Positions 7,031 to 24,138 of a DNA stretch of 25,137 nt are shown piece after piece. Below the pieces are notes generated by a model that did no database searches, was not told the DNA's origin, and saw only the letters and a list, made by a program, of their open reading frames with translations. This DNA comes from Parvularia atlantis (Eukaryota > Opisthokonta > Rotosphaerida), in the NCBI GenBank assembly GCA_943704415.1, contig CALSCO010000393.1, positions 1 through 25,137 of the forward strand. The letters are read 5' to 3'. Made by a program: the position numbers and the translations under genes. The stretch's first letter is position 1. Every line of letters starts with the position of its first letter.

Positions 7031-8904
7031 ATGCCGGCGACGTCCGGCGGCGTTGATGGCGACGCCGATGACGCGCTGCTGCTCGTTGACGGCCTGGACG
7101 ACGCCGTCGAGCTCGCGCGGCTGTACCGCGGCGACGGCGGCGACGCGCGTGGCCTCGTGCTGGTGCGGCAGGCCGACGACGGCGGCGAGATCGTCGCGGA
7201 CGAGGGGCCGGTCGTGCTCGCGTCGCAGGTGCGTCCGCGTGGCCGGCTGCGATCTACGGCCGGCCTTACGTTGCGCGCAAGGCGCTGCCGTCGCTGCTCC
7301 TGGCCGCGCTCGGTTCGGCCATCACCGGCTGGCTGTTTGGCGTGGTGCAGGGCTGGCCCGTCTTCCGCGACACGCCCGAGTTTTTCATCCTCGTGCCCGT
7401 CCTGTTCAACCTGAAGGGCAATCTCGAAATGAACCTGGCCTCGCGCCTGTCGACGGCCGTGCGCCGCCTCAACGCACCACGAGGGGAGGCTCACATCGCG
7501 TCCCCTCCCCGCCCCGCGCAGGCCAACATCGGCCTGCTCAGTCGGCACGCCTCGCGCTGGCAGGTCGTCGTCGGCAACCTCGCGCTGCTGCAGGTGCAGG
7601 CGCTCGGCGTGGGCACACTCGCGGCCGTGCAGGCGATGCTCCTGGGCGGGCTGGAGCACAGCATGTGGAACGACTTTTCCAAGGGCCTGTTTATCGTGAC
7701 CACGAGCGTCGCGACGGCGTCGCTGGCGAGGTGTGCATTCGCGTGCAAAGTGACGCGGCGCGCTTAGACACACGAGCGTACAGCCTCTTGCTGGGCACGC
7801 TCATGTGTCTGCTCGTGATCGTGTGCCACCTCTGCCGCGTCAACCCGGACAACGTTGCGACGCCGATCGCCGCGTCCCTGGGCGACCTCTGCACCCTCGT
7901 CATCCTCGGCGCGCTCGGCTCGGCCCTGTTTGTCTCGCTCGGTGCGCGCTGGCGGCGGCGGCGGGCTGCGCACCGAGCTCACGCACGCAGCAGACACGTA
8001 CTGGGTGCCCGCGATCGCCATCGCGCTCATGTTCCTCCTGCCCGTGTGGATCCACCTGGCCTACACCAACGAGCACGTGCAGGGCGTGCTCGTGGACGGG
8101 TGGCTGCCGCTATTTGCCGCCATGCTGATTTCGAGGTGCGCCGGCCGTGCCGCTGCCGGCGCCGTGCTCAACGGTGTGCCCGCGCAGTGGCGCCGGCATC
8201 CTGCTCGAGTCGTCGCTGTCGCGCTTTCCCGGGCTCGGCGTGATGATTCCCGTCGTGAACGGTGTGTCGTGCGGCTGCATGCGGGCTGACGTGCGGGCTG
8301 ACGCGCGGTCATGCGCGCTCGGCCCAGGCGTGGGCGGCAACATCGGCTCAATCTACGCCAGCCGGCGCTCGACCTTTCTGCACGTGCGTGCGACCGTGCA
8401 CCGGTCTGTCGTGGACGGCTGACGCCGCTGCGCGTCGCACCAGGCCGGCGTGCCGGAAAACCACCGCCGGAGCATGCTCGCGCTGTTCCTGCTGGCGCTG
8501 CCGCTGCTGCTGCTCTTTGTCCTCGCCGTCTACACGCTCGGCATGGGTCACGTGCACGTCACGCCGCTGTTCCTCCTGGCCGTGCTCGTCGTGGGCATCC
8601 TGCAGGTGCGCGCGCGCGTTGGGCATGCGTGCGTGCTCTCCCTTACATCATCGCGCCAGGTCGGCCTGCTGCTCTTCGTCGCACACCACATGGTGCGCTG
8701 GTTCTGGCGCAACCAGTTTGAGCCGGACGACTACGTCATCCCGCTGCTGTCGGCGCTGGGCGACGTCGCCGGCACGGCGCTGCTGGTGGCCGCGTTGTGC
8801 GTCTGCGCGTGCACCATGCACGACACAGCGGCTGATCGCGCGGCCCGCGCAGCTACGTTCTCGTGGCCATTGGCGACCAGGAGCTGCTGCAGCCGCCGCC
8901 CTAG
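7031..8904 (+). CDS. SLC41/MgtE-type divalent cation (Mg2+) transporter
   Basis: A multi-pass membrane protein of the SLC41 family, which moves Mg2+ and related divalent cations. Ten exons (7031-7228, 7282-7458, 7522-7730, 7784-7941, 7991-8135, 8188-8261, 8328-8383, 8444-8605, 8660-8796, 8853-8904) give 455 aa with every phase consistent. The N-terminal 65 residues are acidic and soluble. The first SLC41 repeat contains FILVPVLFNLKGNLEM, NLASRLSTA-ANIG and NPDNVATPIAASLGDL. The second contains LSRFPGLGVMIPVVNG, VGGNIGSIYASR and DDYVIPLLSALGDVAGT. These paired signatures are the conserved cation-pathway segments of the family. The ion has not been tested. The gene converges on the amidohydrolase gene, with 95 bp between the stop codons. 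Confidence 0.93.
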
Positions 8905-8999
8905 CCACCGTGCCGCCGCCGCTCTAGACCGTAGACTCACATGCACAGGAAAACAACTAAACACGTCTTTGTTGCCGCCGCACATGATTCAAGTTTGCC

Positions 9000-9906
9000 T
9001 CACGCCGCCGCAAAGCCCGCCGCGCTCAGCGTCTTGCACAAGTGCGCCGCAAAGACCGCGCGCCACGCGTCCTGCACCAGCAGGTCCTGGCGCACCTCGA
9101 TCATGAGCGCGCGCTTGCCGTGTGCCCGCGCGTGCTTCTCGGCCGAGAACAGAAAGCCCTGCTTGCCCGACCAGGGCTCGTTAAACAGCGCCTTGTACCC
9201 GGCCGCAACGAGCCCGGCGTGCACCTGCAGCGCGTGCGCACGTATCGCTCAGGGGCCGCGCGTGCACGTGCGCGCGCAAGCGCGTGCGCACCTGCAGCGC
9301 CACGTCCTCGTCGTCGTTGTACAGCACCCCGACCTCCATCTCGCGCTTAGCGCCCTCGTACATGTCCGTGAACGAGTGGATCGAGAACACGAGGCGCACG
9401 TCCGGGTGAGTGCGCAGGTGCTCGTCGATCGCGGCGTGGTACGGGTGGTACAGCAGCGTCAGGCGCCGCTCGCGCTCCTCGGGCGACACGCTCTGCGCGG
9501 CCGTGAGCGCTGTGGCAACGTGTGCGCCCAGCGTGCACACCTGGTTCAGCAGCACCGGCTGCCCGTCGGCCACCGCGCGGAAGAGCGTCTGACGCCGGCC
9601 GCGGCGTCAGCAGCAGCGGCGTCGATGGGTGCGGCAACCGACCTCCGAGTCGAGCGGGCGGTTGCAGTCGCACAGCAGGCGCGAGAACTGCGCCGCGATG
9701 CCCGTGCAGCCGAGCCCCGTCGCGAGTTCGCGCGCCAGCGCCTCGGCGCCCAGGTCGACCGCCCAGTGCATGCCCACGAGGCGCTCGTCGCCCTGCGGCC
9801 AGCCGGTCCACGGCGGCGGGATGCGCTGGGACGCGTGCTCGCACGTGAGCAGCACCAGCGCCGCGGCCGTCGCGTGCTCGCCGCCAAAAGCCACGACGGG
9901 CTCCAT
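9000..9906 (-). CDS. N-formylglutamate amidohydrolase family protein
   Basis: Predicted 261 aa from three exons (9906-9643, 9588-9292, 9224-9000). The sequence fits the N-formylglutamate amidohydrolase-like family of zinc-dependent hydrolases: TCEHASQRIP near the N terminus, HWAVDLGAEALARELA, SRLLCDCNRPLDSE, then LLYHPYHAAIDEHL, FSIHSFTDMYEG and the C-terminal MIEVRQDLL. The His/Glu/Arg motifs of the family are present, so activity is plausible, but the substrate is unknown because these COG3931-like members lie outside a histidine-degradation operon. An upstream in-frame ATG at 9963 would add 19 residues and overlap the septin start codon. The family is best known from bacteria, so old horizontal transfer is possible. 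The second intron (9291-9225) has the same 13-base sequence across both splice junctions. Confidence 0.85.
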
Positions 9907-11934: not shown

Positions 11935-13131
11935 ATGGAGGCCACGTGGACGACCATCGAGGCAAGCACTGTGGCGCCGTCGGCGTTGCGCGCCGGCCGC
12001 CGACCGCCGACCGCCGACCGCCGACCGCCGCCGCAGAGCGACCCGGGCGTGTTCACGGAGCTCATACGCGACGTCGGGTGCAGCGGCGTGCAGGTGGAGG
12101 AGATCTACAGCCTTGACGACGAGACGCTGGCGAGCCTGGCGTGCGCGCGGTGCGGCCCGCTGCGCGCCTGCTCACCGCGCGCGCAGGCCCGTGTTTGGGC
12201 TCATCTTCCTGTTCAAGTACACGGGTGAGCGCAACCCGCGACCTGTGACGGCGTCGGTGCCGGCCGACCTGTTTTACGCGAAGCAGGTCGCGGCGGCGCG
12301 GCGGTGTGGCGTCAAGCGCTGACCGCGCTCGCGACAGGTCATCCACAATGCGTGCGCCACCCAGGCCATCCTCGCCGTGCTCATGAACGCGCCGGGCGTG
12401 GACCTGGGCGCGGAGCTGGCCGGATTCAAGGAGTTTACGCGCGACTTTTCGCCCGAGGTGCGGACGACTTCGGCGGCGGGTCCGCGGCGGCTGACGACGA
12501 CGATGCGGCGCGCAGCTCAAGGGCGAGGCCATCACCAACAGCGACACGATGCGCACGGTGCACAACAGCTTTGCGCGCGCCGAGGCCGTGACGGTAGACG
12601 AGAAGCGCGGCGGCAAGCCTGAGGACCTGTTCCACTTCATCTCGTACGTGCCGTTCGAGGGCGTGCTGTACGAGCTCGACGGCCTCGCGGGCGGGCCGAT
12701 CCCACTGGGCGCGTGCACGCCCGACAACTGGCTGCAAGTGGTCCGGCCGGTCATCGCCGAGCGCATCGAGCGCTACCAGACCGAGGGCAGCGGCGAGATC
12801 CGCTTCAACCTAATGGCGGTCATTCGCGACCGGCGCGCGCAGTGCCGCGAGCAGCTCGAGCGGCTCGAAGAAGACGACGCGGGGACGGACGTGGAGACGC
12901 AGCTGCTGCGCAGGGAAGAGCTGCTCGCGACCATCGCGTCCGAGGAGGCCAAGATGGCGCGCTATGCGGTGCGTGCGTTCGCGTGCGCGTGCGTGTGCGC
13001 GTGCCCGCGGGCTCGGCACTGAGCCGCGGACGCAGAAGGAGAACGCGCGGCGCAAGCACAACTTTATCGGCTTCATCTACGAGCTGATGCAAATCATGGC
13101 TGAGCGCGGTGTCCTTGTGCGGCGTCCTTGA
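11935..13131 (+). CDS. UCHL5: Ubiquitin C-terminal hydrolase L5 / UCH37 family
   Basis: A cysteine deubiquitinase of the UCH37 type, usually bound to the proteasome through Rpn13. Six exons (11935-11961, 12037-12140, 12187-12286, 12338-12457, 12516-12968, 13036-13131) give 299 aa. The catalytic set is in place: Gln77, Cys83 (NACATQ), His157 (LFHFISYVP) and Asp172 (LYELDGL). The UCHL5-specific start [14 protein letters not shown] and the C-terminal [14 protein letters not shown] are also clear. The protein stops soon after that helix (GVLVRRP), so most of the charged Rpn13-binding tail of animal UCHL5 appears to be absent. The first intron (11962-12036) has a GC rather than GT donor (GCAAGC), supported by exact phase and by the conserved residues it joins. 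Only 51 bp separate it from the septin stop. Confidence 0.95.
11996..12033 (+). repeat. 7-bp tandem repeat (CGACCGC) inside a GC-AG intron
   Basis: About five copies of a CGACCGC unit fill the 3' half of the first UCHL5 intron and run up to its CAG acceptor. The repeat is free of G-tract or stop constraint because it is spliced out. Confidence 0.85.
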
Positions 13132-13431: not shown

Positions 13432-15208
13432 TTAGGGATCCTTCGGCTCGACCTGGAGTGAGCGCTCGTACATCTCCTTCTCGTCGACCAGGTGGCCCTC
13501 GTTGTCCAGCAACAGGCTCACGATCTCCGGCACGTCCTGCAGTGCGTACCGGCGCAGCTTGAGCAGCTCAATCTCGTTGATCGTGTTGGCCAGCTTGCGG
13601 CACTTGTCAAAGTTGACCAGGTCCGTGCCCTTGACCCGAGTCGGGTTGCCGTCCTCGATGAACGTCAGGTCGCGCAGATACAGCCCCAGCCAGGGCACGC
13701 AGGGCGGGTCGACCGAGTACAGCGATAGCCGCAGGTTGTTAAAGTTGTCCTCGGGCGACATCAGCTCGGCCAGCTCGGTGTATACGGCCATGGTCTTGGT
13801 TGACACGAGCTGACATGCGCGCGTTCAGCCCGGCACAAGCCCGGCGTCGGCGCACCTCCCACGACTTGCGCAGCCGGTGCACGGGCGCAGACTGCAGGCC
13901 CGACAGGATCGCGTTGACCGCGTTGAAGTTATTGAGCGCGCGACACCGCTCGGCCGTGTGGACAAAGAGCTTGATGAGCCGCGCGCGCTGCTTGGGCGCC
14001 GGGCCCCGCATGATCCCGTGGAAGACCCAGCGCGTGACCTGTTGTTGGCGCCGGGCGTGAGCCGGCGACGCGGTCGCGCGCGGTCGCGCACGTCGTTGAA
14101 GCGCTTGATCAGCCGCCGGATGTTTGGCGCGCGCAGGTCGCCGTCCTTCTTGTTCCAGGCCTGCTTGAGCCACTCGCGCGGCTGGATTTGGACAAAGATG
14201 CGCTGCCACGGCGCCAGGGGTGAGTGTGGTGGTGGCCTGCAGCGACGCGACGCACGTGCTCGATCAGCGTCAGCTGCCGCGCCAGCTCGGTCGGGTCAAC
14301 GTCCTCGAGCTGCAAGCTCCCGCCCGCCGTCTTGGGCAGGATCGGCGGGGGCGTCTCGCCCTCGGCCTAGCGCGCGCCACCGCGTTAGACGGCCGTGCCG
14401 CGCGGCGCACGCAGCGCACCGCCCCGCTGTACTCGCTCGCGCTGCTGGTGTTGGCGGGCCCGGCCAACATCGCCTTCTGCGCCAGCGCTTGCGGGTAAGC
14501 ACGGCGCGCGAAGACGTGCGGGCGGGCGGCACTCAGACCTGCTTGGCGAGCAGCTTGGTGATCTCAGCCGCCATGGGCTCCATGTGCTTGCGCATGGTGG
14601 TGTCTGCACGCACGCGTCGGCACACATGTGCACGCACGCGGCGCCGCACCGGCAAAGTGCTGCAGCTGCGTCCAGATGGCCAGGGCCTCGTCGCGGTCGA
14701 TCGTGAGGAAGAAGCGCTCGATCCACAGGCGCATCACGTGGAACACCCTGAGGCGGATCGGCGTGAGGATCTCGGTCTGGAAGTGGAGGTACTGCCGCGG
14801 CGTGAGGTTGGGAAGGCTGTAATCGAAGCTGTTTCGGCGTTGCGCCGTGAGTTTGCTGGCGGGCCAGGACGCACTACCGCACACCGCGCCATCAGCAGCT
14901 GCATGAGCTCGCGCGCGTTGGTAAAGTGCTCGTAGGTCATCATGAAGACCGACTCAAAGTCCTCGTCTGCGCGCGCGGTCAGTGCGTCAGTGCAGTTAGA
15001 CGGTGTGCGCGCGCACGGCACCGGGGTAGAAGTACGTCAGGCGCTCGACCAGGCGTGACAGTGACCCGGCCTTGATCACGGGAAAGCCGTCGCGCGTCCT
15101 GTCGACATCAACGACGATGTCGGTCGTGTCCTCGTGCAGGGCCGTGACGAGCGGCTGGAGGCACTCGTCGACCATGAACAGCTTGGAGCCCATCGCCTTG
15201 CGCGTCGG

Positions 15209-15282
<74 letters not shown>

Positions 15283-17867
15283 GCGCGCGCGCGCGGGTCA
15301 GGCGACATCGGCCGCGAACGCTCTGCGCACCTGGTGATGCGCGTCGTGCTCGTTGCTGCGCACGGCGCGCCGGCGCAGCGTCTGCCCAACCGAGTTGAGG
15401 CCGAGCTTGAACTGGGTCGCGCGGGTGAGGTCGCGCAGGAGCACTTGCAGACCGCTGCAAGGGGGTCAGCACGGCGCGCGTGTGCAGCTGCGAAGGGCGC
15501 ACCCGGCCGCAGCTTGCGCGGATGCGGCGCTGGTGGCCGTGGGTTGCTTGTGTGCGGCGAGGCGGTCGCGCTCGACTCGCTCAAACAGGAGGTACTCTTG
15601 CCAGTACTTGCGGTCCTTCTCGCGGCGCGTCTGCTCGAGCTCCTACGGGCGCGTGCGGGTCAGAGGGTCGAGGCGGCGGGCGGACGGACGTACGTGCAGG
15701 CGGTGCGCATACTCGTCCGAGTGGTCAAAGATCTGGCTGACGATGACGAGCAGGGCCTTCATCGACTTGGCGACCTCGAGCGTGGCCTTCTTGACGTCGT
15801 CGACCGCTGCATAGCGCGCGTGAGTGCGTGAGCGAAAACGGCCGGCGCGCAGGGCACCGTGGTCGGGCGGCCAGACGCCACTGGCGATGCGCGTGGCGAT
15901 GAGGAGCGTCGACACCTGAGGCCGCGGGTTTGGCACGCGGCAGGCGGGGCCACCGGCGTGGGCGCACCGTCTGCTGCAGCGCGGTCGTGTGGGCGTGCAG
16001 TGTGCGCTTGGTGTCGTCGCTCATGACTTTGTCAAAGTCTGCGACGGCGGCCGTCGTCTGGTCGAGGATGCCCCGGACGGCCTGGCTGACGAGCTCAGCC
16101 GTGGGCGTGTACAGCTCACGGCTGGTCTTGTCCTGCGTGAGCTTGACGAGCTGGGCCATCTGGCGCACGACGGTCTGGGTGGCCGTGGTGAAATCGGGCC
16201 GGCGGATCGTGAACGGGAGCGGGGCGACCGCGGGGCCAGCCGCGGGGGCGGGCGGGGCGGCGGGCACGGGCGGCGAGGGCGTCTTGGCCGTCATCTCCTC
16301 GGAGCTCATGGGGCTGAGCGGTCGCTTGTCGCCGGCGGTGGGCGGGCGCAGGGGCCGCTGCTGAGTGACTGCCGAGGCGTCCCAGGGCGAGGCGGGCCGT
16401 CGTGCGCGCCGCTCAAGCGTGCCGTAGCCGAGGCGCAGCGAGGCCGTGTCGCTGTCGGAGGCGGTGTCGCTAGCGAGGTCGTCGTCGAGCGCAATGGTCG
16501 TGAGCTTGGCGAGGAGCTCGTCATTGGCGAGCGTTGAGGCGGGCCGGGCGGGCCCCTGCGCCGCGTCGATAAGCTGCTGCGCCGTCTGCTGCAGCGCCCG
16601 GCTCGACTGGAGAAACTCGTCCTGGTCGTCCTTGGCGATGGCGTTGGTGAGGAGCAGCTGCACGAGCGTGACGAGCATCGCCAGCTCCTGGCCGAGCTGC
16701 TGGAAGAGCGCGGCGTGGGGCGGCCCCGGGGGCGGGGGCGTGCTGGCAAAGCCCGACGATGACGAGCGGCGGGCGAGCATGGGTGGCGTGGGCGCGACGA
16801 CGGGCCGCTGGGCGCGCGTGAGGTTTTGCAGCGCGGCATCGGCGAGGGCGACGATGCGCATCGTCTGGTGAAAGGCCTCGAGCATGCGCGGGCGCAGGTC
16901 GTCGAGCGCGGCCGCAGTGACGAGGGTCTCCATGTGGCGTAGGGTGCCGACGAGCGCGTCGACCGCGTCCGACACGCCCTGGACGTGCTGCGCTTGCGTC
17001 GGCGCGGGCACGACCGACGCAGACGTGGCGCCGATGGCGCCGTCGAGCGCAGCCTCGACCACGAGCACGAGCGCGTCGAACGCGGCCGCAGCCTCGGAGG
17101 CGAGGGCGGTGGTGGCGCTGGCGGCGAGATCGGTGCTAGCGTCGGCGGCAGCGTCGGCGGCGAGGGTGCCGGTGTCTGCCGAGTCGATGATGACGACGAG
17201 GTTGCTCGGGAACCAACCCTCGCGCCCGTCGATGTTGCCGTGCGCCCAGCCGTCGCCGTCGCGGTCGTAGCTGTCGACCTGGATCTGCTGGCCGGCGACG
17301 AACGCGAGCGGCGGGGCGCGGTCGGCAGCGAGGCCCTCGTAGCCGTAGAGCGCGTAGGCGAGGCGCGGGCGCTGCTGCTGCTGCTGCTGCTGCGCGCGCT
17401 TGGCGAGGTAGACACGCGCCTGCAGCACGAGGCGGGGCAGCAGCGCGAGAAAGGCGTCGATCTGCGAGCCGAGGCCGCCGGGTACCAGCGCGTCGGCTTG
17501 TTTATGTTTAAGCGAGTGGTCGTGCGCGGGCGGTCGCGCGCCGCGCACCAAACAGGCTGAGCACGCCCGCGCTGTTTTGCAGCACGACGACGAGGCGCTT
17601 GACGGCGCGCACGACGCGCTCCTGCGGCGTGTCGGCGCGGAAGCCGAGCCAGCGCACGGCGTCGCGCACGGTTTGCCCCTGCACAGCGAACTCAGGTGCG
17701 GGCGCGGCGCGGCGCACGTGTGTGTGCTGCGCCCTGCGGGATGGCGCGTGGGGGCTACGCACCATCTGCCGCACGCCCTCGCGCAGCTGCTCGTCAAAGT
17801 CGGCGCGCGGCCGCAGCGACGGCGGCGGCGAGGCCGGCGGCGCCGAGTTGTGTGACCGCACGGCCAT
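13432..17867 (-). CDS. CDC25: CDC25-type Ras guanine nucleotide exchange factor (SH3-REM-RasGEF)
   Basis: Activates Ras by GDP release. In fungi this family feeds nutrient signals into cAMP or MAPK signalling. Sixteen exons give 1175 aa with all phases consistent; the main ones are 17496-15968 (1529 nt) and 13809-13432. An SH3 domain lies at about 125-185 (LAYALYGYEG, GWAHGNIDGREGWFPSNLVV), preceded by seven Gln. A long Ala/Pro/Ser/Thr-rich region follows, then a REM domain (about 765-870; AGSLSRLVERLTYFYPD, IRLRVFHVMRLWIERFF) and a RasGEF catalytic domain (about 930-1150; DVDPTELARQLTLIEH, LNNFNAVNAILSGL, PCVPWLGLYLRDLTFIEDG). SH3 followed by REM-RasGEF is the fungal Cdc25/Ste6 layout. The ATG at 17867 is the first in frame. 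The ATG at 17765, directly before intron 1, is an alternative. Confidence 0.94.
15212..15279 (+). repeat. (CA)34 microsatellite in a Ras GEF intron
   Basis: Thirty-four uninterrupted CA units. On the gene's strand this is a (TG)n tract ending just before the CAG acceptor of intron 15330-15209, where a pyrimidine tract would be expected. It is probably polymorphic. Confidence 0.97.
17372..17392 (-). repeat. (CAG)7 coding microsatellite encoding polyglutamine
   Basis: Seven CTG units on the plus strand read as seven consecutive glutamines just before the SH3 domain of the Ras GEF. The frame is open on both sides, so copy-number change would alter length without a frameshift. Confidence 0.9.
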
Positions 17868-17895
17868 GGTGTGAATGTTCTGTGTGCGTGCGCGG
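17868..17895. promoter_or_regulatory. 28-bp spacer between divergent Ras GEF and SPX-SER2 start codons
   Basis: The plus-strand start at 17896 is fixed by the canonical SPX beginning MKFGK. The first in-frame ATG of the minus-strand Ras GEF is at 17867, leaving 28 bp, or 130 bp if that gene begins at 17765. Either distance implies a shared core promoter or transcripts that start inside the partner gene. No TATA-like element is visible. Confidence 0.45.
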
Positions 17896-20160
17896 ATGAA
17901 GTTCGGCAAGCGCCTGGCCGAGAGTCGCGAGCGCCTGGCGGCGACGCTGCGCGACAGCTGCCTCGACTACAAGGCGCTCAAGCAGCTGATTAAGCCACTG
18001 CGCGCCAGCCTCAGCCGCAACGCGTTCTTCCCGGCCAACTTTCGGCCGTCGGGCGCGGACGTGGGTGCGTTCGCGCGCGCATGCGACGTGCGCGTGGCTG
18101 ACGGCGCGCGCGCACCCAGGCCGCATCCTCGTGCCCAACTTTTCCGAGCTGGTCGGGTGCAAGCTGCTCGACCTCAAGTCCGCCGTTACGCGCTTCCTCG
18201 ATGTGCTCGACCACGAGGTCGAGAAGCTCAACCGGTGCTACGTCGCCGAGGCCGAGCGGCTGCAGGTGCTGCGGAGCGCCGCGCATCCGGCGCAGGGGGC
18301 GGAGGGGCAGCGCAGCGCGTCGATGGCGCTGCTGGCGCATGTCGAGGGGCTAGAGGTGCACGCCGCGTGTACACGGCTCAGCGCGCCACTCAGCATGCGC
18401 CGCAGACGTTCGTGTCGCTCAACTACACCGGCGTGGTCAAGATCCTGAAGAAGATGGAGAAGGTGACGGGTCTGGACATCCGCGAGCCGTTCCTCTATCG
18501 CATCTCGATGCTCCCGTTCAGCAAGGCCGTCTCGGTGGCCGACCTCAAGGCGCAGCTGCTCGCCGAGCTCCTGCCGACGGCCGCGCCAGACGAGCCGCCG
18601 GCAAAGCGCGCGCGTGTCGCGGGCGACTCGGCCAACGGCGATGGTGATGGCGCGGCCCTGGTGTCGGCGGCCGACGGCGAGGTGCGCGCGGCGATGTGGA
18701 CCGTCCCGGCACCGGTGTTGGCGGCCGACGGCGAGGTGCGGGCGCGGATTGACGCGGCGACACGGACCGTCACTGCACTGGCGGGCTCACAGCCGCTGTT
18801 TCGGCCGAGCACACCGCTGTCGTCGTTGGCGCCGGTGGCGGCGGCAACGGCGGCGGCGGCGGCGGCGGTGACGGTGCGCACAGCGTCGACGGCGTCAGTG
18901 GGCGAGGCGGCGTCGGCGCTGGTGTCGATCACGGGGCGGCAGGGCACGGACCTGCTGGCGGCGCTGCTGGCGGGGCTGGAGCGGCACCAGGTGCGCGTGC
19001 TGGACGTGGGGTTGGCGCGGGTGCACCACGCGACGACGGCGGCGGCGCTGGTGGAGATGCCGGCGGAGGAGTCGGTGCTGCTGCGCGAGCTCACAGACGA
19101 GTGTGACAAAATGGGCGCGGCGCTGACGTATCAGGTCAACCCGGCGCGAACGCCCATGCCGACGTCGCTGGCGCCGTACCCGGAGCGGGAGGCGCACGTG
19201 GTGACGATCGTGGGCGACGTGCCGCTCGGCGCGGCGGTGCTGTCTGCGGTGACGCGCGTGGTCGTGGGCCAGAACGCGTCGGTGATGCGCGTGCACAAGC
19301 TCGGCGCGTTGCTGCGCGCGGTGGAGCTCGGCGTGAGCGCGCCCGAGGGGCTCGACGTCTTGGCGTTGCGCGCGGCGCTGTTTGTGGTCGCGCGGGTACA
19401 CGCGTGCGACGTGCACGTGCAGCGCGAGTCGGTGCACCGGCGCGGCAAGCGGCTCGTCGTGTTTGACATGGACTCGACGCTGATTCGGCAGGAGGTCATC
19501 GACGAGCTTGCGCGGTATGCCAACGTGCACGATCAGGTGCGTGGCGGGCGGCGGAGCGCGGCTAGCGGGCGTGACAGTCGGCGGTCGGTATTGACGGGGA
19601 GTGCGCAGGTGAAACAGATCACGGAGGAGGCGATGCAGGGCAAGCTGGACTTTCGCCAGTCACTGCGCAAGCGTGTGGCACTGCTCGCGGGCCTGCCGGT
19701 GTCGGCGCTGGACGAGGTCAAGGCGCGACTGGAGCTGATGGAGGGCGCGCTGCCGCTGTGCCGGGCACTGCGCGGGCTGGGCGTGCGCACGGCGGTGGTG
19801 TCGGGCGGGTTCCTGCCGATGGCGCTGCACATCAAGGAGGCGCTGGGGCTAGACTACGCGTTTGCGAACCAGCTCGAGGTGTCGGCCGACGGGCAGACGC
19901 TGACGGGCCAGCTTGTGGGCGAGGTGGTGGACGCGCAGCGCAAGGCAGACCTGCTGGGCACGCTGGCGCAGCTGGAGGGGGTGCAGCGCGAGCAGATTGT
20001 CGCGGTGGGCGACGGCGCCAACGACTTGCTCATGCTGGCCGCGGCAGGCGTGGGGATAGCATTCCGCGCCAAGCCGGTGGTGCAGGAGCAGGCCTCGTTC
20101 CGCATCAACACGCGCAGCCTCCTCTCCGTCCTGCACCTGCTCGGTCTCGATGCCGAGTGA
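17896..20160 (+). CDS. SER2: SPX domain fused to double-ACT phosphoserine phosphatase (SerB/Ser2 type)
   Basis: Predicted 695 aa from four exons (17896-18064, 18120-18355, 18406-19536, 19609-20160). An N-terminal SPX domain (1 to about 175) starts MKFGKRL and contains DYKALKQLIK, DLKSAVTRFLDVLDHEVEKL and LNYTGVVKILKKMEK, the Lys-rich helices that bind inositol pyrophosphates in this family. A low-complexity linker with PPAKRAR (possible nuclear signal) follows. Two ACT-like domains come next (about 307-378, starting ITGRQGTDLLAALL, and 398-475, starting VVTIVGDVPLGAAVL). The HAD phosphatase (485-690) has FDMDSTL at about 488-494, VVSGGF and VGDGANDLLML, which would release serine from phosphoserine. 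The SPX C-terminus, both ACT domains and the catalytic Asp motif lie in one uninterrupted 1131-nt exon, so the fusion is not a splicing guess. Phosphate-regulated serine synthesis is an inference. Confidence 0.95.
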   Translation: MKFGKRLAESRERLAATLRDSCLDYKALKQLIKPLRASLSRNAFFPANFRPSGADVGAFARACDVRVADGARAPRPHPRAQLFRAGRVQAARPQVRRYALPRCARPRGREAQPVLRRRGRAAAGAAERRASGAGGGGAAQRVDGAAGACRGARGARRVYTAQRATQHAPQTFVSLNYTGVVKILKKMEKVTGLDIREPFLYRISMLPFSKAVSVADLKAQLLAELLPTAAPDEPPAKRARVAGDSANGDGDGAALVSAADGEVRAAMWTVPAPVLAADGEVRARIDAATRTVTALAGSQPLFRPSTPLSSLAPVAAATAAAAAAVTVRTASTASVGEAASALVSITGRQGTDLLAALLAGLERHQVRVLDVGLARVHHATTAAALVEMPAEESVLLRELTDECDKMGAALTYQVNPARTPMPTSLAPYPEREAHVVTIVGDVPLGAAVLSAVTRVVVGQNASVMRVHKLGALLRAVELGVSAPEGLDVLALRAALFVVARVHACDVHVQRESVHRRGKRLVVFDMDSTLIRQEVIDELARYANVHDQVRGGRRSAASGRDSRRSVLTGSAQVKQITEEAMQGKLDFRQSLRKRVALLAGLPVSALDEVKARLELMEGALPLCRALRGLGVRTAVVSGGFLPMALHIKEALGLDYAFANQLEVSADGQTLTGQLVGEVVDAQRKADLLGTLAQLEGVQREQIVAVGDGANDLLMLAAAGVGIAFRAKPVVQEQASFRINTRSLLSVLHLLGLDAE

Positions 20161-22494: not shown

Positions 22495-22680
22495 GGAGGG
22501 GTTGGTTGGCGGGGCGGTGGACGGAAGGGCAAAGCGAGTGCCGCGCGACGCAAGGGCAACATGTGACGGTACGTGTTAGTAAAGACCCAAACAATAAAAG
22601 TGTTGACGACAACCCGGTGAGGTGCGACCAAGCGTGGCAGCCGCGCAACGACCGCTCAACGTGCGCTGCGCGCGCAGGGC
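22495..22680 (+). promoter_or_regulatory. Promoter/5' leader of the sorting nexin gene
   Basis: This 186-bp spacer separates two same-strand genes. It contains a less GC-rich patch at 22560-22612 that includes an AATAAA-like hexamer at 22592-22597, a candidate poly(A) signal for the upstream gene. A GTGAGG donor at 22618 and a GCGCAG acceptor ending at 22677 could define a 5' UTR intron just before the ATG. Confidence 0.35.
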
Positions 22681-24138
22681 ATGACGGAGGGCGCAGGCAA
22701 CAACGTGTTTTACAGCACGATCGACAAGCTGCTGCAGAGCGGCACGCCCGTGCTCGTGACCGACCCGCGGCGCGTGGGCGAGGGCCGCGAGGCGCACATC
22801 GAGTACCTGATCCAGATCGAGGGCCACAGCGTGCGCCGGCGCTTTTCCGAGTTTGACACGTTCCGCGACGCGCTCGTGCGGCTCAACCCGACATGCATTG
22901 TGCCGCCGCTGCCGGAGAAGGACGGCATCACGCTGAGCATGGTTAGCTTCAACCTGCTCGCCACGACGGCCAATGCCGACCACGAGTCTGTCGAGAAGCG
23001 GCGCGTGCACCTGCAGTCGTTCCTGAACCGCGTGGCGAAGCACCCGATCCTGTCGGCGTGCCGGCTGTTTCACCGCTTCCTCGAGGCCGACGCTTGGGGG
23101 CCGGCCCTGGCCGAGGAGATCAAGTCGCTCGAGGCGCCGTCGATCTTTGGCAGCCTCAACGTCATCGCCCCGCGCGTGCAGCGCCCGGACGCGCGCTTCC
23201 TCGACATCCAGAACCACTCGACCAAGTTTGGCCAGCAAGTCGCCGCCATCGAGCGCAACGTGCGGCGGCTCGTGCGTCGTCAGTCCGGTAAGTGTGGGTG
23301 GGGTCTGGCGCGCGGTGGGTGGTGATAGTGGGGTGCGAGCGTGGCGAGCTCTGTGCAAACGGTGCTGGAGGGGTTGCGCTGTTGCACTGCATCATGCTTG
23401 TGTGCACGCGCCGCGCGCAGAGCTGGGCGGCGACTATGCCGAGCTGGGCTCGATCTTCCAGGCGTTTGCGTCGCACGAAAAGGAACTGTCGGCAGCACTG
23501 ACCAAGACTGGCGAGGCCGTGGACGGCGTGTTTCTGGGCTCTCGCTACACGGTGTCGGAGGTGCGTGCCGCAGCACGTCACTCCCCGCGCGCGCGCGCGC
23601 TCACACCCGCGCGCGCTCACACCCGCGCGCGCCACGACAGATGGAGACGACGGTGCTGGACCCGCTACAAGAGTACATCGGGTTTGTCAACTCGATCAAG
23701 ACCGTGCTCAAGGTGCAGGAGCAGCGGCACGCGGCCGTCGAGGGCATGATGGACCAGCTCCAGAGCAAGCGTGACCAGCTCAAGGTGACCGAGGCGCAGC
23801 TCGCCGGCCAGCCCACGGGAGAGAGCCTGTCGTCATCGCTCTTCCGGAGCCTCGGCCGCATGCTCGACTCAAACCCGCAGCAGACCCTGCGCGACAACGC
23901 GACCAAGCTGCAGACGGCCGTCAGCGAGCTCGAGAAGACCACAGACGAGTCCAACTCGGCCCTGACCAAGTCGTCCGAGGCCGTGCTGCACGACTACGAG
24001 CGCTACAGCCGCGCCAAGGCGCACGACTTTAAGGCGATCATGCTCGCCTACGCCAAGACCGAGATGGACTTTCACCACAAGAACGCGGCCCTGTGGGAGA
24101 ATGTCGTGCCCGTCATCGACAAGACGGTCTCGCAGTGA
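22681..24138 (+). CDS. PX-BAR sorting nexin, Snx41/Atg20/Snx4-like
   Basis: Predicted 414 aa from three exons (22681-23287, 23421-23560, 23641-24138). A PX domain (about 15-140) has VRRRFSEFDTFRDAL, VPPLPEK, and RRVHLQSFLNRVAKHPIL followed by LFHRFLE. This pattern fits Snx4/Snx41/Atg20, which bind PI3P and act in endosomal recycling and selective autophagy in fungi. A helical BAR region (about 200-410) contains YAELGSIFQAFASHE, LQEYIGFVNSIKTVLKVQEQ and a C-terminal helix DFKAIMLAYAKTEMDFH. Intron 1 is longer than usual here (133 nt) and has a rare canonical GTAAGT donor. Assignment within the Snx41/Atg20/Snx4 group needs phylogeny. Confidence 0.92.
23582..23636 (+). repeat. Purine/pyrimidine-alternating GC repeat in a sorting nexin intron
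   Basis: Tandem units of GCGCGCGCTCACACCC make up most of intron 23561-23640. Alternating purine-pyrimidine (CG and CA) steps of this kind can adopt Z-DNA. It ends shortly before the ACAG acceptor. Confidence 0.7.

Follow-up and report, generated by a model that had tools for sequence, protein, structure and literature searches.

Does the plus-strand locus at positions 17,896 to 20,160 of contig CALSCO010000393.1 of Parvularia atlantis encode one enzyme in which an SPX domain is built into a phosphoserine phosphatase, and is that enzyme controlled by inositol pyrophosphates? The window is the whole 25,137-nt stretch of DNA that was analysed. A first-pass annotation, made from its letters and open reading frames, had read the locus as a single gene in which an SPX domain, two ACT domains and a SerB phosphatase are joined. 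In our gene model, which is the same as that of the first-pass annotation, the SPX-SerB gene consists of four exons and three GT-AG introns (55, 50 and 72 nt) and yields a 695-amino acid product. This product is most likely the organism's phosphoserine phosphatase, with the predicted domain order SPX-ACT-ACT-SerB, catalysing the reaction that completes the phosphorylated serine pathway. Profile matches, alignments and the structure model of a relative show one predicted gene with four domains, in which the catalytic motifs and the SPX ligand pocket appear intact.

The profile search that the first-pass annotation had proposed for the N-terminal region gives a significant SPX match in the product (Pfam SPX, E 2.8e-12, 47.8 bits, above the cut-off of 27.8), and the rice SPX2 and SPX1 chains align with residues 1-174 and 1-175, respectively; the helical fold of an SPX domain is present. 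In a Foldseek search, the 50 matches listed out of 1599 are mostly phosphatases, with no SPX chain among them, and the structural match to SPX came from a further comparison. The product also matches Pfam ACT_6 at residues 307-374 (E 1.8e-9), Pfam HAD (E 1.3e-23) and the NCBIfam serB model, TIGR00338 (E 1.8e-77, 259.9 bits, cut-off 144.15), and its residues 304-692 align with Mycobacterium avium SerB (E 3.9e-66). The second ACT domain, ACT2, has no Pfam match of its own in the product and rests on the alignment with M. avium SerB (3p96) and on the relative's model; with the Pfam-matched ACT1, it makes up the two ACT domains that stand ahead of the phosphatase in a double-ACT enzyme. The HAD catalytic motifs DxDST, SGG, K and GDGxND are all present. 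These matches, together with the relative's model, bear out the domain identities that had been proposed. The serB profile and a protein from Thoreauomyces each locate one gene in the P. atlantis genome, and in both cases it is SPX-SerB; two further serB matches, on contigs C19 and C398 (27 and 24.4 bits), are weak, short and below the cut-off. For phosphoglycerate dehydrogenase (PGDH), the exons on contig C65 have this enzyme as their best NCBIfam match, at 81-83 bits and below the full-length cut-off, and contig C552 has a match of 114.6 bits.

The first-pass annotation had also suggested looking for the same architecture in fungi, and it is found there in many early-diverging lineages. A protein search with the product as query lists 20 matches, among which two carry an SPX domain (P0001, from Thoreauomyces, and P0020) and 18 are plain SerB proteins, while a profile search with three N-terminal parts gives six matches, P0001 not among them. 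Such protein searches score only candidates that share most words with the query, and absence from their lists, for example of Dikarya, proves nothing. With residues 1-440 of P0001 as query, 191 matches were obtained, and the results that follow concern the best 120 of these, which are the ones listed. Every one of the 120 has the HAD nucleophile motif D[MV]DST and a lysine equivalent to K147 of the P. atlantis product. A precomputed SPX domain is present in 119 of them, and the one without, P0072, can be aligned across the full query region (100%); those that lack a precomputed HAD domain are metagenome-derived and short. No Dikarya name occurs among them. In a separate alignment, A2, made up of 60 fused sequences and 10 red-algal or bacterial SerB sequences added deliberately (70 in all), profile matches at the E-value threshold number 60 for SPX, the same as the count of fused sequences, 70 for ACT_6 and 66 for HAD. 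Carriers of the fusion include Thoreauomyces (Chytridiomycota), Piromyces (Neocallimastigomycota), Phycomyces (Mucoromycota), Mortierella (Mortierellomycota), Rhizophagus (Glomeromycota), Basidiobolus (Basidiobolomycota), Coemansia (Kickxellomycota) and Syncephalis (Zoopagomycota). As judged by these profile matches, the SPX-ACT-ACT-SerB architecture is widespread in early-diverging fungi and is not peculiar to P. atlantis. In a tree of 38 rows, built by a quick method whose program warns of long branches, the P. atlantis protein stands beside all the other fungal fusions included (support 94) on a long branch of its own (1.97). Red-algal ACT-SerB proteins without SPX (P0002 and its metagenomic relative P0003) group beside the fungal fusions in this tree, at a distance from its six bacterial SerB proteins.

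To examine the SPX ligand pocket, we used an alignment of 122 rows, comprising the query, the metagenomic relative P0021 and the 120 listed relatives. The ligand-pocket residues on SPX helices 1, 2 and 4 are present in the query. Every one of the 116 rows with a residue at the positions concerned has Y25, K29 and K33; K147, K150 and K151 are invariant in all 122, and residue 154 is K in 13 rows and R in 109. K33 and K154 are counted here as pocket positions. When K and R are counted as one residue, conservation reaches 95% or more in 28 of the 160 well-filled SPX columns, among them eight of eight pocket or pocket-side positions (Fisher p 3.5e-7, an optimistic value, since the eight positions were picked after the alignment was seen and the rows are related to one another). 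Among 23 representatives with less than 70% identity, Y25, K29, K33, K147, K150 and K151 are each kept in 23 of 23 and N141 in 22, and position 154 has K in 5 of them and R in the other 18. The alignments show strong constraint on the predicted SPX pocket. In a HMMER alignment, K147 corresponds to K129 of Vtc4 and N141 to N123. Substitutions of Vtc4 K129 and N123, combined with those of their Vtc3 counterparts, are reported to make VTC fully or partly independent of its ligand, which then stimulates it little (PMC10167327). The catalytic residues of the phosphatase are kept in the same 122 rows, D489 and D491 in all 121 rows that have a residue there and D647 in 94 of 94.

We lean, by a modest degree, towards a phosphatase that is gated by inositol pyrophosphate through its SPX domain. 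Inositol pyrophosphates, whose level would track phosphate status, may bind SPX, and the bound SPX may alter the oligomeric state or the domain packing of the ACT-ACT-phosphatase part, while the ACT pair may add feedback control by an amino acid, for which serine is a candidate. By analogy with VTC, SPX would be an autoinhibitory part that is relieved by inositol pyrophosphate. When phosphate is plentiful, serine output would then rise, and with it the supply of one-carbon units and of head groups for phospholipids. This positive sign, which is drawn from the VTC analogy, is the weakest step of the proposal and would carry only slightly over half of the confidence that we place in gating itself. 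Gating by both SPX and ACT ligands is plausible and is strengthened by the strict conservation of the SPX pocket, by the presence of exons of the inositol phosphate (InsP) kinase family on three contigs of the genome and by the resemblance of the relative's ACT pair to 5jlp, an enzyme structure in which serine is bound to the ACT domain. A search of the genome for PPIP5K2_N (PF18086) gave no match, and a control likewise found nothing; introns or an incomplete assembly may hide one. SPX exons also occur on four other contigs of the genome.

A number of observations weigh against this proposal. In the relative's model (pTM 0.64), the linker between SPX and ACT has a predicted local distance difference test score (pLDDT) under 50, and the model suggests a disordered linker that joins the two, with no definite interface by which the sensor would touch the enzyme. 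When the fit to M. avium SerB2 includes ACT1, the rmsd is 10.6-12.7, indicating that ACT1 is placed differently. The ACT1 turn reads GRQGTDL in the query and GPHGTDI in most rows, and D317, which is invariant in 122 of 122 rows, as are the nearby G312 and G315, aligns with the glycine of the M. avium DQPG turn. For M. tuberculosis SerB2, it is reported that serine is bound via the ACT domains with a shift in oligomeric state, a glycine in the ACT1 beta1-alpha1 turn is required for serine binding, and mycobacterial orthologs exist that lack the serine transition (PMC4270767). We infer that the M. avium turn glycine is G18 of that report. Since D317 replaces this glycine, ACT1 may bind another ligand or nothing, and serine is not established as the ACT ligand. 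The metagenomic relative P0021, as predicted, is a 278-amino acid protein that stops after SPX, with neither ACT nor phosphatase. The SerC aminotransferase model TIGR01364 has no match in the genome, although introns or an incomplete assembly may hide one, and the frames examined at five loci among its 10 Aminotran_5 matches belong to other families or to none (the frame at locus L030 is probably the wrong one). The middle step of the serine pathway was not located among the genome matches. The VTC polyphosphate polymerase domain (PF09359) likewise has no genome match, again with introns or an incomplete assembly as possible reasons. For phosphoglycerate dehydrogenase (PGDH), the exons on contig C65 have this enzyme as their best NCBIfam match, at 81-83 bits and below the full-length cut-off, and contig C552 has a match of 114.6 bits.

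How well do other explanations account for the same data? The locus might consist of neighbouring SPX and serB genes read as one by an error of the gene model or the assembly. The window has a GC content of 69% and contains 165 stop-to-stop frames that reach a length of 100 amino acids, and the chance of a 377-codon open frame in such a window is about 0.003 per try; for this reason, the open frame by itself is weak evidence for a gene. The linker, moreover, is of low complexity, is longer than that of the Thoreauomyces relative and contains 13 in-frame GT-AG pairs (about 39-200 nt), and P0021 is predicted as SPX alone. Against this, the codon-position GC bias continues across the linker, though it is weaker there, and the same fusion, with its HAD motif and K147 equivalent, occurs in many independent assemblies. 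The recurrence of the fusion in many other genomes confirms the predicted fusion gene as real. We therefore rejected the gene-split artefact, whose remaining probability is minute. It is also improbable, if somewhat less so, that SPX is a ligandless remnant carried by history. The domain is divergent overall, as its 47.8 bits indicate, and the query has V155 where H stands in 116 of the 122 rows, but the pocket residues are among the best-kept SPX positions.

Two alternatives retain a functional SPX domain and deserve more weight, though both are unlikely. In one, SPX serves for docking or oligomerisation and brings the phosphatase together with partners or other SPX proteins, inositol phosphates act mainly as glue, and catalysis is set by the ACT ligands and the substrate. 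A long linker that is disordered in the relative's model, and longer still in P. atlantis, would suit this arrangement, as would the lack of a firm SPX-enzyme contact at a pTM of 0.64 and the contacts between SPX domains that are described for VTC (PMC10167327). Mere docking, however, would not need the strictness with which K147, K150 and K151 are kept, and we consider it unlikely, while granting it the largest share among the alternatives. Slightly less probable still is the opposite sign, in which inositol pyrophosphate inactivates the enzyme when phosphate is abundant and starved cells use the phosphate-releasing step. The phosphoserine phosphatase reaction does release phosphate, and AtSPX1 inhibits the binding of PHR1 to DNA in a phosphate-dependent manner, which is repression in plenty (PMC5651819). 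The released phosphate was taken up earlier in glycolysis, however, and the pathway as a whole would bring no net gain.

The gene model itself was chosen from a junction scan of 16 frame-keeping splice models as the one that best restores homology to the SPX core (LETFVSLNYTGVVKILKK) and the SerB core (VHDQVKQITEEAM); the others were dropped where SPX or SerB homology became weaker. Exon 1 (17,896-18,064), assigned from Pfam SPX and conserved residues, holds the start codon and the initial SPX helices (MKFGK..., with Y25, K29 and K33), and exon 2 (18,120-18,355), assigned from the alignment of the rice chains, encodes mid-SPX. Intron 1 (18,065-18,119) and intron 2 (18,356-18,405) lie on either side of exon 2. 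P0021, which has 65% identity across 39% of the query in the N-terminal profile search, continues past the intron 1 position without inserted residues and carries extra in-frame residues at precisely the position of intron 2, between 'LE' and 'TFVSLNY', and this pattern supports both junctions. The P0021 prediction may reflect a truncated gene call, or a close relative may have SPX as a protein on its own. Exon 3 (18,406-19,536, 1131 nt) begins with the SPX pocket helix (N141, K147, K150, K151 and K154) and the end of SPX (18,406-18,555), and continues through the low-complexity linker (18,556-18,807), the two ACT domains (18,808-19,440; ACT_6 profile, M. avium SerB alignment and the relative's model) and the start of the phosphatase with its FDMDST motif (19,441-19,536; serB profile and M. 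avium alignment). In an exon-by-exon genome scan, exon 3 alone scores 26.6 bits against SPX, below the cut-off. The linker contains a 43-nt direct duplication (18,653-18,695 and 18,707-18,749) that is 86% identical, has a spacing of 54 nt, or 18 codons, stays in frame and lengthens the linker. Intron 3 (19,537-19,608) is placed such that the spliced product fits the serB model end to end. Exon 4 (19,609-20,160) encodes the remaining phosphatase (SGGF, RK and GDGAND motifs) and the stop codon; it is assigned from TIGR00338 and from similarity to Thoreauomyces P0001, with 62% identity to P0001 residues 458-643. The single-gene reading, with its 1131-nt exon and 695-amino acid product, is upheld by conservation of the fusion elsewhere and by P0021 at introns 1 and 2.

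Only 28 bases (17,868-17,895) separate the start codon of SPX-SerB from a putative divergent start at 17,867 on the minus strand. The divergent gene has an SH3 domain (SH3_2, E 1.1e-6, frame 15,725-17,977), and a RasGEF domain lies further along the same strand (13,432-13,824, E 8.2e-20). If these belong to one gene, it is presumably a Cdc25-like RasGEF that has a tiny promoter in common with SPX-SerB. Elsewhere in the window, a PX domain (E 9.1e-21) and, after it, a Vps5 C-terminal-like domain (E 6.6e-11) at 22,621-24,138 probably mark an intron-split sorting nexin gene, and parts of an MgtE-type divalent cation transporter (8,423-9,106, E 1.2e-8) and of a family 1 ubiquitin C-terminal hydrolase (12,495-13,022, E 3.8e-21) are present.

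The first-pass annotation knew of no described SPX-SerB enzyme. This agrees with the open-licence full-text literature, in which searches directed at an SPX-phosphoserine phosphatase fusion brought up no description of one. Among the matches listed there, the texts that name an SPX domain and phosphoserine phosphatase together concern, by their titles and abstracts, sugarcane miRNAs and a plant ITPK kinase. In a genome survey of mycorrhizal nutrient signalling, SPX proteins are named among PHO transporters and Pho81, and the word phosphoserine is absent (PMC8401276), as it is from a Rhizophagus irregularis methylome paper (PMC8298701). The architecture itself is nevertheless not unique, being widespread and already held in public databases as 'phosphoserine phosphatase', 'HAD-like' or hypothetical proteins. 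As far as the literature covered goes, the fusion is undescribed, and we presume it to be an SPX-controlled protein with a serine-biosynthesis effector. To our knowledge, no SPX domain is known on a core amino-acid biosynthesis enzyme.

It is possible, though we would stop short of even confidence, that these proteins form a deep-rooted class of inositol-pyrophosphate-gated biosynthetic enzymes, phosphoserine phosphatases with a built-in SPX domain, through which phosphate status acts directly on de novo serine and one-carbon supply in many, perhaps most, non-Dikarya fungi, including the arbuscular mycorrhizal fungi. If gating holds, phosphate signalling would reach serine and one-carbon metabolism directly, via one protein; this would be relevant to fungi centred on phosphate trading, such as the arbuscular mycorrhizal fungi, and would prompt one to ask what takes its place in Dikarya.

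The SPX domains known so far belong to proteins of phosphate and polyphosphate metabolism. The inositol-pyrophosphate-regulated proteins VTC4 and XPR1 have the same N-terminal SPX domain, with its pocket residues, ahead of an effector, and PHO81, PHO87/90/91 and GDE1 are further SPX proteins regulated in this way. The effector in those proteins is a phosphate, polyphosphate or glycerophosphodiester protein, whereas here it is predicted to be an amino-acid biosynthesis enzyme. Yeast Ser2, a fungal phosphoserine phosphatase of about 300 amino acids, is not known to carry SPX. Mycobacterial SerB2 (M. avium 3p96 and 5jlp, and M. tuberculosis SerB2) also lacks SPX and differs in its ACT1 turn and, compared with the relative's model, in the position of ACT1. 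Pyropia yezoensis SerB-like P0002 has ACT and SerB like the fusions and adjoins the fungal proteins in the tree, but has no SPX among its precomputed domains. Closest are the SPX-ACT-ACT-HAD proteins of early-diverging fungi (Thoreauomyces P0001, R. irregularis P0088 and Mortierella alpina P0113), which have the same domain order and conserved residues, and among which the P. atlantis protein stands apart by its long branch and its longer linker.
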